From contig JANWYD010000004.1 in assembly GCA_025057155.1 (NCBI GenBank), forward strand, positions 1 to 64,000: a stretch of DNA of 64,000 bases. The letters are read 5' to 3'. Shown here piece by piece: positions 5,992-12,962 of this stretch (position 1 is its first letter; every line of letters begins with the position of its first letter). This DNA is from Chloroflexaceae bacterium. GTDB taxonomy: Bacteria > Chloroflexota > Chloroflexia > Chloroflexales > Chloroflexaceae. Position numbers and translations under genes: made by a program. The notes under the pieces are model-generated. The model worked only from the letters and a program-made list of their open reading frames with translations, searched no databases and was not told the DNA's origin.

Positions 5992-8091
5992 CTACTTCCG
6001 CCCGAACCAGCGGCCCTTCTTCGGCGGCTCTATCGTCTTTCGCAGCGCCTCCAGATCGTCCTCGGCTGGCAGGGGATTGGAAGGTGGCCGGGCCGTTCCG
6101 CCCGGCTCTGCGGGCAGTGCATCGAGCGCGATACGCTGCCCGCCGGTCGCGCCAGCGGCCACTTCGCTGGTTCCGGCGAGCGGTGCATTCAGCGCCAGCC
6201 CTTCGCCGACGAGGGCCAGGGCCAGCGAGCCGTTGGTCGCCGATGCCGATTCAACCGATCGGGGTGCGCCCATGGCATCCAGACCATCTCCTCGCTCGAC
6301 CCCTAGCGCCGCGAGCCATTCCCAGAGGCGGGCGCGCCGGATCGCGGCATCCTCGGGCAGGTGCAGGGGCCTCCCGCGCGCGTCAATCACCAGACCCAGC
6401 AGACTGCCGGCGATATCGCCGCCTTCGGACGAAACCGTTTCACCTGGCGCCGCCAGACCAACTCGCACTGCCGGCCCGGGCCGCACCGTCAATTGTCCGA
6501 AGTGCTTCGGAGGCAGCGGTAGCCGGGCGATATCGCCGTGACGCACCACCAGGCGCTGGGTAGCGCCGCCGACAGTGGTCAGTTCCACCTCGGCTGCCGG
6601 GGCGCCGACGGTTCCTTCACCCAGCAGCACCAGCACTGCCGCGAGGGGGGTGTTGCGCAGCAGATCGCGATCAATCAGCGAAACCGCTGCCGCGGGACTC
6701 AGCCCGGCCAACGCTGCGCTGGCCGGAACCAATCCCAGAGCGTCCAGATAGACATCTATCACAGGATGATCGTGCGCGCCGTCAGGTTCCAGGCCATCAA
6801 GCAGCGTCAGCAGGGCCAGCCCCGGCTCAGGCGCGTGGATCATGCTCCCGCCCGTAGCTATCAGCCAGTCATAGTCAGCGGAGCGAATCTCGTCCAGCAG
6901 CGTGTCGCGGGCCAGCCGCAGCGCCTCGCGAAGCAGCGCGTGCTCGATGTACCGGTCCTCGCGAGTGGAGGGCAGCACCTGCGGGCGGAGAGCGCGATTG
7001 AGCAGCCGGTCGGTCAGCGTCTCGGTCGTAATCGGGAACGGCAGCCAGCGCGCGATAGATTCAACTCCGCGCTGCGCCAGCAGTTCGGTCAACCCGTACC
7101 CGACGCCCGCTGTGCCAAGGATTGCCGGGTGAAAGCGCCCCGGCGCGGCGTACAGCATGGCGCTGGAGCTGGCGCCAATATCTACGGTCAGCACCCGCCG
7201 TCCCGTCCGCTCGGCCAGAAAGCGGGTCAGCAACCCCTCTGCCTCGCAGACCGTGCGCGTCGGCGCGGCGGAGATGCGCCGCAGATCGGACCAGCCGGGC
7301 AGCCGCGGCAGGATCATATTCTCGTAGAGGCGCGCCAGTTCCTGGCGCGCGGGATCGAGCCGTTCGTGATCGAGGGCGGGGCGCAGGTTGTCAACCACGA
7401 AGATCTCGGCTCGATCGGAGAGCGCTGCAATCACCTGCTCGCGGACGGCGCTATTGCCGGCATAGATCACCGGGTGGGCCGTCATCGGTCGCCCCTGCGG
7501 GCCTGGCTGATCAATCCTCGCTCGGAGCGCCGTTAGCCCCGCCAGATGGGCCAGCCGCCTCACGGCATCGCTGGCGCCGGCTTCAAGTCCCCCTGCGATC
7601 AGCACCGCATCAGGCTGCAGACGCAGCAATTCCTCCACCTGGCGCTCGGCCCGGGATCGATCGTCTGGTTTCTGAACCATCCTGCCTTGCGCGTCATCGA
7701 GGGTCACGATCTGGCGCACGGCAGTGTAGGTCGCGCGGCTGGCGCGAAGGGCGCTACGGCCCGAGAACGCGCTGGAAATCGCCATAACGACCAGCGTCAA
7801 CGGACCGGCGGCGCTGGTCACTGCTATAACGTGGTTAACGCCGTTGCCTTCACTGTTCTGAGGCATAATAAGTTGACCTTCGCGCAGCAACTGGCGCCCG
7901 GTCATCTCCGAAATCCGCTTTACGGCCTCCAGCACGCCGTAAAGCACATTCTGGTAGGGTGGTTCGGCGCTGCTGATCGCTTCCGCGCGCCCAACCATAC
8001 GGCTTTCGCCGTCTACCTCATCAACCAGGGTTACGCGGGTGATCAGGCTGCCGATTTCGGCCACCAGCACCGCCCCCAGGTCGTCTGTCAT
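5992..8091 (-). CDS. MutL/GlmL-family ASKHA ATPase-like protein
   Basis: A 699-residue protein of the GlmL/MutL family (unrelated to the mismatch-repair MutL), named for the protein beside glutamate mutase and thought to be an activator of cobalamin mutases. It has the actin/Hsp70-type nucleotide fold: an N-terminal VAEIGSLITRVTLVDEV strand pair, LIAGGLEAGASD near residue 160, VDIGASSSAMLY near residue 345 and WLIATGGSMIHAP near residue 430 correspond to the phosphate and adenosine loops. The ATG at 8091 is chosen because GGAGG sits six bases upstream; 14 earlier codons lack a site. It is the last gene of a five-gene minus-strand cluster with membrane proteins and a WLR-repeat protein. No mutase is nearby, so its partner may be this cluster. 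Confidence 0.75.
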   Translation of the reverse strand: MTDDLGAVLVAEIGSLITRVTLVDEVDGESRMVGRAEAISSAEPPYQNVLYGVLEAVKRISEMTGRQLLREGQLIMPQNSEGNGVNHVIAVTSAAGPLTLVVMAISSAFSGRSALRASRATYTAVRQIVTLDDAQGRMVQKPDDRSRAERQVEELLRLQPDAVLIAGGLEAGASDAVRRLAHLAGLTALRARIDQPGPQGRPMTAHPVIYAGNSAVREQVIAALSDRAEIFVVDNLRPALDHERLDPARQELARLYENMILPRLPGWSDLRRISAAPTRTVCEAEGLLTRFLAERTGRRVLTVDIGASSSAMLYAAPGRFHPAILGTAGVGYGLTELLAQRGVESIARWLPFPITTETLTDRLLNRALRPQVLPSTREDRYIEHALLREALRLARDTLLDEIRSADYDWLIATGGSMIHAPEPGLALLTLLDGLEPDGAHDHPVIDVYLDALGLVPASAALAGLSPAAAVSLIDRDLLRNTPLAAVLVLLGEGTVGAPAAEVELTTVGGATQRLVVRHGDIARLPLPPKHFGQLTVRPGPAVRVGLAAPGETVSSEGGDIAGSLLGLVIDARGRPLHLPEDAAIRRARLWEWLAALGVERGDGLDAMGAPRSVESASATNGSLALALVGEGLALNAPLAGTSEVAAGATGGQRIALDALPAEPGGTARPPSNPLPAEDDLEALRKTIEPPKKGRWFGRK

Positions 8092-8129
8092 GCCAACCTC
8101 CGCCGCATCCGGAACGGCTCTCATGTGCT

Positions 8130-8792
8130 TCATCCCAGCGGCGCCCGCAGCCAGTTCACGATGAACTCCAGCCGTGTATTAAGCGCCGTGAGATAGGTCA
8201 ACAGCACTCCCGCGAAGAAGAAGCCAAAAGCGATCATCAGCAGCCAGCGCCCGGCGCGCGCGCTCAGGGCCAGCAACCGCCCCCCGGCGCGTTCACGAGC
8301 AACGGTGAAGTAAAAGGAGCTTAGCGTCAACACTACCCCGATAACCAGCGCCAGCGCCCCGACGATCTGCAGCGGGTCGTTGCCGAGCGGCCGCGCAGTA
8401 TCCAGGAGTTGCGGCATAATTGTGCCTGCCAGGGCGCCGGCCGCCGCCAGCGCCATCGCGACTCCAAAGAGCAGCGCCAGCGGAATGTTCGCCAGCCACG
8501 AAAGCGTCTGGCGCCGGGTCAGGCGCGTGAGCAGCAACAGACCGAGCAGCCAGGGCGCCAGCCGCAGGCCGAATAGTAGCGGATCGGCTACGCTCGCCAG
8601 CAGGGCCAGCGCCTCGGGGCGCAGCACCTGATGGTACACCACCACGAAGGCATAGCCCAGCGACGCGCCGACGAAAAGGTACTGCACGGCGCGAAAGGCG
8701 GGATTATCGCCCAGCAGGCGGCTGAAGACCAGCAGGGTTAGCACCACGGCAATCAGCCCGACGCTCAACGTGGTAAGAGGGTCGTCGGTCAC
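8130..8792 (-). CDS. Seven-helix membrane protein of the WLR/MutL-like cluster
   Basis: A 220-residue very hydrophobic protein with about seven predicted TM helices (first: LSVGLIAVVLTLLVFSRLLG; last: LMIAFGFFFAGVLLTYLTAL). I do not recognise a named family. Initiation is at GTG 8792, preceded by GGGAGG, and the start overlaps the stop of the upstream WLR-repeat gene by four bases (GTGA), so the two are translationally coupled. The 38-bp gap to the MutL-like gene downstream also indicates one operon. No catalytic motif is visible. The longer open frame upstream to 9086 is a shadow of the WLR gene. Confidence 0.75.
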   Translation of the reverse strand: MTDDPLTTLSVGLIAVVLTLLVFSRLLGDNPAFRAVQYLFVGASLGYAFVVVYHQVLRPEALALLASVADPLLFGLRLAPWLLGLLLLTRLTRRQTLSWLANIPLALLFGVAMALAAAGALAGTIMPQLLDTARPLGNDPLQIVGALALVIGVVLTLSSFYFTVARERAGGRLLALSARAGRWLLMIAFGFFFAGVLLTYLTALNTRLEFIVNWLRAPLG

Positions 8793-11467
8793 CTCGCACC
8801 TCCCGAAGCGGCGCGCTGGCGCATGAACGCGCTCGCGCTGGCGCCAAGCAGCAGCAGAACCAGAAACGCTGCCACTGCAAATGCCAGTTGTCCGGTGGCG
8901 CGGCTCAACGCGGACGGATCGGCCGTAGGATCGCTGGCGAGGAGCGCCAGCGCGCCCTGTTGTCCGGCAATAGCGTAGACATTGGGCAGGCGCAAATAGG
9001 GTTGGGCGAGAGGCTGGGCGTCCTGGGGCAAGAGAAACGCAATCGGCACTTGATCGCGCACCTGTTGATGCACCTGCTCCATCCACACCTGAACGTCCTG
9101 GGGCTGGTCGGCCAGCACTACGATCAGCGCCAGATCCTCGATCCCCCTGATCCGGGGCGTGCCGTCAGGGTAATTGGCCACCAGGCCCTGCGAAGCATCT
9201 TGCCCGTCAAAATCCGATGCCAGGGCGCCGCGCAGGTCCTGGGCCAGGCCCCGCACCGCCAGATCGCCGCCGGGACGGTAGCCGAGCAACACATAGTCGC
9301 GACCGCCGAACGACACTCCGTTCTCATTGTTGTAGCCGGCCGCCCGTAGCGGTTCGATCAGGTCGAACGAGAGCAAGGCGCCCTGGAGATCGGTGCTGAC
9401 CAGGATCAGTTTGGTGCGGTTGGCAATGAGCCGGCGCGTGACAGCTTCTTCCAGGGGGCGCAGTTCACCGCTTCGCTGGGCGGCCCACTCATACGCCATG
9501 AGCACCACATCATCGTCGTTCAAACCGTCGAGCAGCGCTCCAAGAGCCGTGGCGTTCTCCGTGACCGGCGCGCTTGAACGGAACGGGAGCGTGATCTGAG
9601 GCGCCAGCAGAGCGATGAGCAATGCCAGTGCCAGCAGAGCGTAGAGAAGGCGGTGCAGATCAAGGCGTCGTCGAGTCTCCTCGACGGGAGCGGTTGCCGG
9701 CGCCGGGGTTGGATAGGGCGTCGCGGCAAGTTGCTCAAGCAGCCGCATCGCTCCGAGTTGCTCGGCGGTTGGCTGGTACATTCGACGCGAGCGCGTCACT
9801 ACCGCAGCGGCTACTGGCGTTTCTATCTCGCTCTCTTCTGCCTCTATGCCGCCCAGGCGCCGCAACCAGTCGAGTTGCTGGCCGGCGGCGGTTTCAGCAG
9901 GCAATTCAGGCTCTGGCACCCGCAACCAGCCTGGCAATTCAGCGCCGCGCAGGAACCCGCCGCTATCTCCTTCCTCAACGCCAGGCTCAACCCTGCCCGG
10001 GGACTCCGGAGCAGAGGCGACTGGCGACGGGGCAGGCTCGGCGGGCGCATCATGCAACCAGGCTGGCAGATCGAGCTTCGCACCGCCTGTAGCCGCAGGA
10101 ACCTGATCGGCGCTTTCCGCCGCGAGGAGCCAGGGAGGTACATCATCACCAGGAACCGACGGCTCTTCAGTTGCCGGCGTCTGAGCTGCAGGCGTCTCAT
10201 ATAGCCAAGGCGGAACCTCCTGGACTGCGGGTTGGGGTGGAGGCTCGACGGCGTCTTGGAGCCAGGCGGGGATCTCCTGGCCCTCCACGGCAGGCGGTGT
10301 CTCAGCGGTCTCGGCAGCCTCCCGCAGCCAGGCGGGAACCTTCTGGCCCGCGGGTTGGGATGGAGGCTCGGCAGCGTCTTGAAGCCAGGCCGGGATCTCC
10401 TCCCGGCCCTCCGCCACAGGCGGCCTCTCAGCGGTCTCGGCAGCTTCCCGCAGCCACGTCGGAAGCTCGTCGCCGGAGGCCGGGGGCCTGGCCGGCTCAG
10501 CCTCCCGCAGCCAGGCGGGAAGTTCCTGCCCCTCCGCTGGCGCCGATGTATCGCTGGTCTGAGCAACTTCCCGCAGCCAGGCAGGGAGTTCTTGATCCGC
10601 CATCGGCGCTGCCGCGGGGTTCTCGGCCTGCAATGCGTCCCGGGACGCATCAGTGATTTCACGCAGCCATGTGGGGACTTCGGCTTCTGCGGCGAGATCA
10701 GCCTGAGCTTCGAGGGTTGGCGCAACCTTTTGCTCTTCGGGCGTCACAAACTCGCGCAGCCAGTCAGGCTCTTCGGGGAGCGGCTCTGAGGGTTGAGCAA
10801 GCGGCGACGATGGTCTTTGCTGAGCAGGAACCGTACTGACATCGGCGGAAGGTTTCTCCGTAGGAAGGGCACCGGTCTGTTCACGCTCTAGAGGTGGCGG
10901 CGACTCGCCTTCAACCGCCCGGTCAAGCTCATCGACGTGCAACTCGCGCAGCCAGTCAGGCAAACCGCTCGGATCGAGGGGTTCGGAGACTGGCCCGGAG
11001 ACCGGCTCCGACGGCGCGTCAGGGTCGTCGCCAATTGACCGGAGCCAGTCGGTTACTCCCTCAGGCATCTTGATGCGCGAACTGGTCGTTGGTTGATCGG
11101 CAGGAGGAGGTGCTTCCTGCGGCGCAGCCGGCTCGTCGCTGCCAAGACTGCTGAGCCAGGAAGTCGCTCCGAGCGGCGGCGTGCGCGGGGAAGGCTCAAC
11201 GGGCGGAGCGGGCTGATCAAGATCGCGCAGCCACTCAGGGGTTTCGGCAGGGCCGGTTTCGGCCTCCTCGCGCACCTCACGGCGCAGATCGCGCAGCCAC
11301 TCAGGGGTTTCGGCAGGGCCGGTTCCGGCCTCCTCGCGCACCTCACGGCGCAGATCATGCAGCCACTCGGGGACGCCCTCATCCTCCGCGGGCGACCCTG
11401 GCTGATCGCGACTGGTTGGTGGAGAGGGGAGCGGCAGATTACGGAGCCAGGGGGGAAGGTGTTCCAT
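8789..11467 (-). CDS. Large membrane-anchored protein with 20 PxWLR repeats
   Basis: An 892-residue protein with an unusual plan. Residues 1 to ~535 are Pro/Ala/Glu-rich and hold 20 copies of a short motif, mostly P-[EDAT]-W-L-[RQH]-[ED] (for example PEWLRDL, PDWLREL, PAWLREA), 10-60 residues apart. A TM helix at about 605-625 (LLYALLALALLIALLAP) is followed by a ~230-residue globular domain (DVVLMAYEW, LILVSTDLQGALL, RDYVLLGYRPGG), then a second TM helix near 860-882 and a basic tail. The N-terminus is probably cytosolic, offering an array of short Trp-Leu docking sites; this is inference. The ATG at 11467 follows the upstream stop by one base. No enzymatic motif is seen. Disordered arrays of such peptides suggest a scaffold that recruits partners to the membrane. 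Confidence 0.75.
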   Translation of the reverse strand: MEHLPPWLRNLPLPSPPTSRDQPGSPAEDEGVPEWLHDLRREVREEAGTGPAETPEWLRDLRREVREEAETGPAETPEWLRDLDQPAPPVEPSPRTPPLGATSWLSSLGSDEPAAPQEAPPPADQPTTSSRIKMPEGVTDWLRSIGDDPDAPSEPVSGPVSEPLDPSGLPDWLRELHVDELDRAVEGESPPPLEREQTGALPTEKPSADVSTVPAQQRPSSPLAQPSEPLPEEPDWLREFVTPEEQKVAPTLEAQADLAAEAEVPTWLREITDASRDALQAENPAAAPMADQELPAWLREVAQTSDTSAPAEGQELPAWLREAEPARPPASGDELPTWLREAAETAERPPVAEGREEIPAWLQDAAEPPSQPAGQKVPAWLREAAETAETPPAVEGQEIPAWLQDAVEPPPQPAVQEVPPWLYETPAAQTPATEEPSVPGDDVPPWLLAAESADQVPAATGGAKLDLPAWLHDAPAEPAPSPVASAPESPGRVEPGVEEGDSGGFLRGAELPGWLRVPEPELPAETAAGQQLDWLRRLGGIEAEESEIETPVAAAVVTRSRRMYQPTAEQLGAMRLLEQLAATPYPTPAPATAPVEETRRRLDLHRLLYALLALALLIALLAPQITLPFRSSAPVTENATALGALLDGLNDDDVVLMAYEWAAQRSGELRPLEEAVTRRLIANRTKLILVSTDLQGALLSFDLIEPLRAAGYNNENGVSFGGRDYVLLGYRPGGDLAVRGLAQDLRGALASDFDGQDASQGLVANYPDGTPRIRGIEDLALIVVLADQPQDVQVWMEQVHQQVRDQVPIAFLLPQDAQPLAQPYLRLPNVYAIAGQQGALALLASDPTADPSALSRATGQLAFAVAAFLVLLLLGASASAFMRQRAASGGAR

Positions 11468-11468
11468 A

Positions 11469-12134
11469 TTACCGATCAAGGTAAGGCGCGTCGAAGCCGA
11501 GCAGCACCCGCAACCCCGCCACGAACGCGCCGATGGAGGCGCCGATTACCAGGCCCCGCGCGCCTGCAAGCGCCACATAGTCGTTGATCCACTGGAGGGT
11601 CGCCCCGACGCCGGGCAGCGCTGTCACGGGCGGCAACTGCGCTACCAGCACGAGCGCCGCGACACCGATAATAACCAGCGCCTCGGCGCTACCGCGCCCC
11701 AGGGCGCGCAGGGCGGCGCTGAGGCTGAAAAAGGCTAGCAATGCGAGCAGGCTGCTGGCAACAGGCTCATACAGCGCCCGAAAGACCATGCGGATCGGCA
11801 CCTCGGCCAGACTGCCGGGCAACACAAAGCCTGCGCGGCCAGGCAGCGGAAAGAAGATCCCGGCAACAATCATCACCAGCAGACCCGCAATCAGGATCAA
11901 ACTGTAAGGCCAGTCGGCGCTTCGTGCGCGCACGCGCTGCACATGCGCGCCGGTGACGCTGATCACGCCGAGCAACAGGCCAACGGCAGTGATGACCGCC
12001 GCCCAATCAACCAGCACCCTGGCCAGCACTGCCAGCGGACCGCCTGCGCCGGCAAAATCGAGCAGGACAATCAACCCGGCAACCCCGGCGATGAGGATGG
12101 CAAGCAGGCGTTTGGGATCGCGAAATAACACCAT
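11469..12134 (-). CDS. Six-helix membrane protein of the WLR cluster
   Basis: A 221-residue protein with roughly six TM helices (LLAILIAGVAGLIVLLDFA, VITAVGLLLGVISVTGA, LILIAGLLVMIVAGIFF, LLALLAFFSLSAALRAL, LVIIGVAALVLVAQLPP and LVIGASIGAFVAGLRVLLG). I do not recognise its family. It starts 21 bases after the DUF6754-like gene ends and stops one base before the WLR protein starts, so it belongs to the same transcription unit. The PGSLAEVPIRMVFRALYEP loop between helices 3 and 4 is its most polar part and could be a contact surface. Confidence 0.7.
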   Translation of the reverse strand: MVLFRDPKRLLAILIAGVAGLIVLLDFAGAGGPLAVLARVLVDWAAVITAVGLLLGVISVTGAHVQRVRARSADWPYSLILIAGLLVMIVAGIFFPLPGRAGFVLPGSLAEVPIRMVFRALYEPVASSLLALLAFFSLSAALRALGRGSAEALVIIGVAALVLVAQLPPVTALPGVGATLQWINDYVALAGARGLVIGASIGAFVAGLRVLLGFDAPYLDR

Positions 12135-12155: not shown

Positions 12156-12962
12156 CTACAATCCCGGGAGCGGCGGCAGTCCCAGGTAGGAATGGATCAG
12201 GCTGTAGCACAGGCCGCCAATCAGCACCACAATCACCGCCGTGCGCAGCGCGTCCTGCGTCAGCAGACGCGCCTGAGCCGGGCCTGAGGGGGCCAGATAG
12301 GCTTCGCTGGCATAGATCTCTTCGCCGATCAGCGTCGCCGGGGCGGTCAACAGCATCAGCGGCAGGCCGGCGGTGCTGGTCGTGCCGGCGACCTGCGGCA
12401 GCCCCCGTTGGGCGCCGTCTTCGCCCACGAGCAAGAACTCCTGCCCGAAGCCGCCAAGCATGGCGCTGGCTTCCAGAGGTTCGCGCCCATACAGGGTGAT
12501 CGCCCCGGTCGCATAGGCCATCTCATCGTGATGGGCCAGCAACTGTACCTGCGCTGGCTTAAAATCCTGGGCCTGGCCCGCCTCTTGAAACGCCCGGCGC
12601 ACCCCGCCGCGCAGCGCGAGATGAGCCACCGCATCACCTGAACTGACCAGGATCGGCGCGCCATTGAGAGCCGCCTGCGACGCTGCCCGTTCGGTCATCA
12701 ACAATCCGGCCACCAGTTCAGTAGAGGCGGAACGCACACCGCTTCCCGCACCCAGCACACTCGCGCCAGGCGACAGATGCACCGCGCGCCCAGTCTCCGC
12801 CGCCCGGTCAATAGCGGCGCGCAACGTATCGAGAGCGGGAAGCGGGCGCTGTGGCCGGATGCCCTGCTTCAAGGCCCAGGCGTGATGCAGCCAGATCAGC
12901 CCGATTGTCACCAGGATAACCATCAGCATCAGGATGATAGCGAGGTTCAACCCGGGTAACAT
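12156..12962 (-). CDS. DUF6754-like membrane-anchored protein, first gene of the WLR cluster
   Basis: A 268-residue protein with one N-terminal TM helix (LNLAIILMLMVILVTIGLIWL), a soluble domain of about 190 residues and a C-terminal TM helix (TAVIVVLIGGLCYSLIHSYLG). The soluble part begins with LSPGASVLGAGSG and has LLTERAASQAALNGAPILVSS and LLAHHDEMAYATGA. This resembles a family I tentatively place as DUF6754, which is found in Chloroflexota and other bacteria beside membrane proteins. Both termini being membrane-bound suggests a loop facing one side. GGAG lies about nine bases before the ATG. It is the promoter-proximal gene of the cluster. Function is unknown. Confidence 0.65.
   Translation of the reverse strand: MLPGLNLAIILMLMVILVTIGLIWLHHAWALKQGIRPQRPLPALDTLRAAIDRAAETGRAVHLSPGASVLGAGSGVRSASTELVAGLLMTERAASQAALNGAPILVSSGDAVAHLALRGGVRRAFQEAGQAQDFKPAQVQLLAHHDEMAYATGAITLYGREPLEASAMLGGFGQEFLLVGEDGAQRGLPQVAGTTSTAGLPLMLLTAPATLIGEEIYASEAYLAPSGPAQARLLTQDALRTAVIVVLIGGLCYSLIHSYLGLPPLPGL

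Follow-up and report, generated by a model that had tools for sequence, protein, structure and literature searches.

A conserved array of short Trp-Leu motifs in a five-gene operon of Chloroflexota: a candidate membrane-anchored docking scaffold

A protein of a Chloroflexaceae bacterium carries in its N-terminal part an array of short Trp-Leu motifs that is conserved among orthologues, is under selection, changes its copy number with tandem duplication, and is encoded in a conserved operon. The gene lies in the window, by which we mean the whole stretch of 64,000 nucleotides that was analysed. The best reading of this arrangement, which we hold with moderate confidence, is a multivalent docking scaffold, anchored in the membrane, that would serve one cytosolic partner. 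Two transmembrane (TM) helices would anchor the protein, with a predicted Rossmann-like domain outside, and a 540-residue disordered acidic N-terminus would extend into the cytosol, displaying about 20 [DE]-[LVI]-P-x-W-L-[RQ] peptides about 24 residues apart. Each copy may fit a pocket on the soluble partner, and weak single contacts would then sum and concentrate that partner beside a putative complex formed with the other products of the operon: a DUF6754 protein, two polytopic membrane proteins (TM221 and TM228), and a MutL-type ATPase.

The array gene is held by a minus-strand open reading frame, and its likely start is an ATG one base past the stop of the upstream gene (Table 1). There are 20 tryptophans within residues 1-540, and all 20 are followed by leucine. 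An earlier note made from the sequence had counted 20 PxWLR motifs in a Pro/Glu-rich chain. The 20 WL motifs are present, and the chain is indeed rich in Pro, Glu, and Ala, but the count for the full form was slightly too high: the motif list holds 17 PxWL, 13 WLR, and 11 strict PxWLR. When the sequence was shuffled 20,000 times with its composition preserved, the mean number of PxWL was 0.31 and the maximum 4, against the actual 17. The composition of the chain suggests that it is disordered. Its net charge is about -69, and a chain so strongly acidic argues against simple membrane binding.

Hydropathy shows two TM helices with the globular domain between them, where the earlier note had described a domain tethered by one helix. 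Basic residues precede the first helix and follow the second. By the positive-inside rule, this arrangement puts the array probably in the cytosol and the enclosed domain on the extracytoplasmic side. An AlphaFold2 model built from 13 related sequences gives this C-terminal domain an alternating alpha/beta structure (pLDDT 76), whose top structural neighbours are mixed Rossmann-type domains (Z <= 8.7); Foldseek returned no significant match (no E below 0.001), and sequence searches found no convincing relative of solved structure. The fold class is therefore modelled as likely Rossmann-like. Neither Pfam nor NCBIfam contains a family that matches the array protein or its array at E <= 1, and 20 homologues of the C-terminal part gave stray single weak matches to family models only. 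A search for viral relatives found none. The window gene is the only array gene found in its own genome; a pattern match elsewhere in that genome (G000:C30) was rejected as a spurious reading frame of low complexity.

Table 1. Features of the array locus and of related loci. Positions refer to the window unless a locus name precedes them.
Feature	Position	Strand	Basis
Array protein, 892 aa	8789..11467	minus	ORF 8789-11479; ATG at 11467; orthologues
Disordered Pro/Glu/Ala-rich region, probably cytosolic, 20 WL motifs	9848..11461	minus	residues 3-540
TM helix 1	9593..9649	minus	residues 607-625 (ATG numbering); hydropathy, model
TM helix 2	8831..8887	minus	residues 861-879 (ATG numbering); hydropathy, model
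Predicted extracytoplasmic Rossmann-like alpha/beta domain	8894..9550	minus	residues 640-858; AlphaFold2 pLDDT 76, fold comparison, alignment
66-bp tandem duplication, 2.3 copies, 95%, over motifs 2-4	11220..11372	minus	tandem repeat in window DNA
DUF6754 protein, first of five genes, conserved operon partner	12156..12962	minus	PF20539, 6e-30
Conserved operon partner TM221, with six predicted TM helices	11469..12134	minus	hydropathy, operon comparison
TM228, polytopic membrane protein, GTG start	8130..8792	minus	hydropathy, operon comparison
MutL-type (PF13941) ATPase, last gene	5992..8133	minus	PF13941, 4.7e-59
TPR - PxWL array - TPR protein	L221:4749-7883	minus	
TPR - PxWL array - TPR protein	L222:4809-9032	minus	
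TPR - PxWL array - TPR protein	L223:1-2127	plus	
TPR - PxWL array - TPR protein	L224:5370-8537	minus	
About 350-aa operon continuation protein	L162:3257-4318	minus	
About 350-aa operon continuation protein	L167:4065-5120	minus	
About 350-aa operon continuation protein	L181:11193-12293	plus	

Searched with the C-terminal part, 70 of the 158 genomes of the class have an orthologue (36 genera), and the array is kept in nearly all of these orthologues as well as in many outside the class. The earlier note had named two outcomes that would speak against it, poor conservation of the motifs in orthologues and a known domain covering them; the motifs proved conserved and no known domain covers the array. 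Over 946 motifs, a count inflated by near-identical copies inside single arrays, [DE]-[LVI]-P-x-W-L-[RQ] emerges as the consensus (P in 89%, L in 97%, R or Q in 68%); the median spacing is 24 residues, and the information is limited to positions -4 to +3 with little beyond. The motif is not constant from class to class: Chloroflexia commonly have R at +2, and K, S, and A are frequent in Anaerolineae-type loci (the label, here and below, is a reading from gene content of genomes outside the class). This drift makes a single fixed pocket uncertain. When the window gene is compared with four relatives, pN/pS is 0.11-0.23 for motif codons, 0.38-0.52 for linkers, and 0.16-0.34 for the C-terminal part, a contrast between motif and linker that is somewhat helped by the W-anchored alignment. 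It follows from this contrast that the motif array is under purifying selection, and the linkers far less so.

Copy number varies strongly, as the earlier note had raised, even inside one genus (about 26 versus 70 WL motifs in congeners of genus g4). Across the phylum the counts run from a few to about sixty. Among 39 recovered orthologues, some of which have very low counts because contig ends or assembly breaks truncate the gene, the N-terminal part holds a median of 19 PxW[LIVM] motifs and at most 63; PxWL itself reaches about 63 copies in one protein. Tandem repeats at the DNA level accompany the change in copy number while the motif itself is retained; examples are the window gene and L059, a relative with 52 copies of a 48-bp unit.

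The same motif recurs in other proteins. Anaerolineae-type genomes encode a protein, unrelated to the array protein, in which 10-21 PxW motifs lie between two TPR domains; this protein also bears repeated 'ALAWLESLAAKQGA' blocks. In six loci (L074, L075, L077, L078, L084, and L060) the MutL has a disordered C-terminal tail with one to three PxW[LM] motifs. Because unrelated proteins, MutL tails included, share the motif, it is reasoned that the receptor is probably common to the motif-bearing proteins and is probably not the MutL ATPase. The docking-peptide array proposed in the earlier note thus gains indirect support: the motif core is conserved, is constrained above the linkers, and recurs in unrelated proteins.

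The gene order DUF6754 - TM221 - array - TM228 - MutL is found in essentially every complete locus of the class and also in other classes of the phylum. The first gene product matches PF20539 with 104.6 bits and the last matches PF13941 with 200.8 bits (gathering score 27 for each). In the window, the GTG start of TM228 (8792) runs into the stop codon of the array gene, and the ATG of MutL (8133) likewise into that of TM228. None of the operon genes was recognised as a mutase, and the literature library searched held no paper on DUF6754. For the MutL-type protein, sequence searches gave no convincing relative of solved structure, and a structure model (pLDDT 50) is too poor for fold assignment. 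Chloroflexia MutL homologues, that of the window among them, often end in a conserved basic/aromatic tail like LRQTVE-PKKRGLFGRK, with a basic end such as KRGLFGRK, and this tail is possibly a membrane anchor. Outside the class, the operon may continue with a protein of about 350 residues, in some cases weakly like barrel-sandwich (RnfC_N) domains, and with a small TM protein, which in L162 and L167 is DUF4064-like.

The core protein itself occurs in several forms: without N-terminal extension (L176, L178, L179), with zinc ribbons and no array (L161, L163, L174, L177, L185), with zinc ribbon and array (most Anaerolineae-type loci, as well as L075 from the same taxonomic order as the window), and with array alone, as in the window family. 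Since the core occurs bare, with ribbon, with both, and with array, the comparison of sequences points to the array as a cytosolic module added to a conserved membrane core and not as the core. Several lineages that have no array (for example L161, L176, L177, and L179) retain MutL together with the other operon genes, and because the same operon occurs there without it, docking would be dispensable for the core function in some lineages.

Two of the alternatives to be weighed keep the scaffold and propose a partner for it, and their probabilities therefore overlap with that of the docking scaffold. The earlier note had suggested the MutL-type ATPase, which shares the operon with the array phylum-wide; in the window, start codons of this operon overlap preceding stop codons. 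This partner is improbable, as MutL tails bear the motif themselves in several lineages and lineages that have no array still retain MutL. In the other, which we regard as speculative and rather unlikely, the array motif is a look-alike of the FtsZ C-terminal peptide that recruits, or competes for, a binder of the FtsZ tail (FtsA being the candidate), linking the complex to the division machinery. The FtsZ tail of the window's own genome, DDLDIPPFLRNRHRK (core DIPPFLRNR), can be compared with HLPPWLRNL, the first motif of the array. In genomes that bear the array most FtsZ tails read D[IV]PxFLR, outside the class typically D[IV]P[AT]FLR[NR]R; a few array motifs have F in place of W (for example DDIPDFLRAAG and ELPDFLRNI); and when the array matrix is applied with the central residue unscored, just 2 of 8,781 aromatic-centred background windows exceed the genome's own FtsZ tail. 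Both of these are phosphofructokinase loops, that is, unrelated enzymes, and the likeness spans 6-7 residues and was noticed post hoc. The charge of the flank is opposite, basic after FtsZ tails and acidic after array motifs, and R at +2, nearly invariant in FtsZ tails, is often lost in Anaerolineae-type arrays. In favour of a shared receptor stand the position of ftsA directly upstream of ftsZ and the precedent of GpsB, a single receptor that reads the same tail motif on FtsZ and PBP4 (PMC11062636). SepF, considered as an alternative receptor of the FtsZ tail, was not found in 20 genomes, with control genomes positive. The presence of FtsA was rejected as a discriminating marker: it is nearly universal (372 of 400 genomes), so its co-occurrence says little. 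Compared by eye, FtsZ tails and arrays show no clear matching variation at positions -1 or +2. Strongly altered FtsZ tails (for example AILRFLRER) come from genomes of families without the operon, and some of these genomes, where checked, also lack FtsA; the association of deviating tail and missing operon is phylogenetically confounded. Sampled genomes of families f13 and f14 (L131 among them) have neither a detectable FtsA SHS2 domain nor the operon, and their FtsZ tails, where read, are altered in this way. The window's own genome has two FtsZ paralogues (L117 and L118), of which L117 only has the canonical DIPPFLR tail, and a pair of FtsZ genes is frequent in the family. Carried further, a five-gene membrane complex in much of Chloroflexota would display tens of FtsZ-tail-like peptides and compete for or recruit FtsA or another FtsZ-tail receptor, acting as a tunable organiser of division or of the cell filament with copy number as its tuning knob; this extension we consider doubtful, slightly more so than the look-alike itself.

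The remaining alternatives dispense with a specific pocket. Regular W spacing, low complexity, and a high and variable copy number would also suit a sticker-and-spacer condensate, attached to the membrane, in which tryptophans stick to each other and acidic spacers tune the assembly. We consider this quite improbable: P, L, and the acidic/hydrophobic flank are constrained along with W, and aromatic stickers alone would need no fixed PxWL order. Neutral repeat expansion in a disordered spacer, to which the DNA tandem repeats in the window and in one relative might be ascribed, is very unlikely indeed, given the strong purifying selection on motif codons, much weaker on linkers, and the persistence across the phylum of motifs with unrelated linkers.

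A docking scaffold of this kind would matter for two reasons. A phylum-wide conserved gene set without described function contains an extreme short-motif array, and this motif is selected, portable between proteins, and quick to change its number between close relatives, so that the array lends itself naturally to the study of multivalent docking in bacteria. Were the resemblance to the FtsZ tail functional, it would in addition point to a new division regulator in filamentous Chloroflexota.

As for known systems, the last gene of the operon belongs to the same Pfam family (PF13941) as the MutL/GlmL accessory proteins of B12-dependent mutases; in contrast to these, it scores far below the equivalog cut-offs (62.5 bits versus 600 for GlmL, 49.8 versus 475 for OR-4) and sits in an operon of membrane proteins. 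The first gene is a member of DUF6754 (PF20539), with no detectable homology to the domain of the array protein: homology between the two was rejected, since hhalign aligned just 30 TM columns. The core of the FtsZ C-terminal peptide, D-[IV]-P-x-aromatic-L-R, is similar to that of the array motif, which has W for F, but the peptide is a single copy at the end of FtsZ with a basic flank, and the likeness meant here is one of motif. The GpsB recognition motif of Firmicutes, read on FtsZ and PBP4 by one adaptor (PMC11062636), is likewise a short motif common to a cytoskeletal and a membrane protein, although it is another motif and occurs in single copies. EPYC1 and PYCO1-type proteins are the linkers of Rubisco in algal pyrenoids and carry repeated sticker motifs (PMC6265248, PMC10288592). 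They are described as disordered chains in which short motifs at even intervals allow multivalent binding to a partner, and it is with this description, not with their sequences, that the array was compared. Their partner is Rubisco, whereas the array protein is bacterial, membrane anchored, and encoded in a five-gene operon; what the array has in common with EPYC1 is a repeated short motif under selection in a chain that, judging from its composition, would be disordered.
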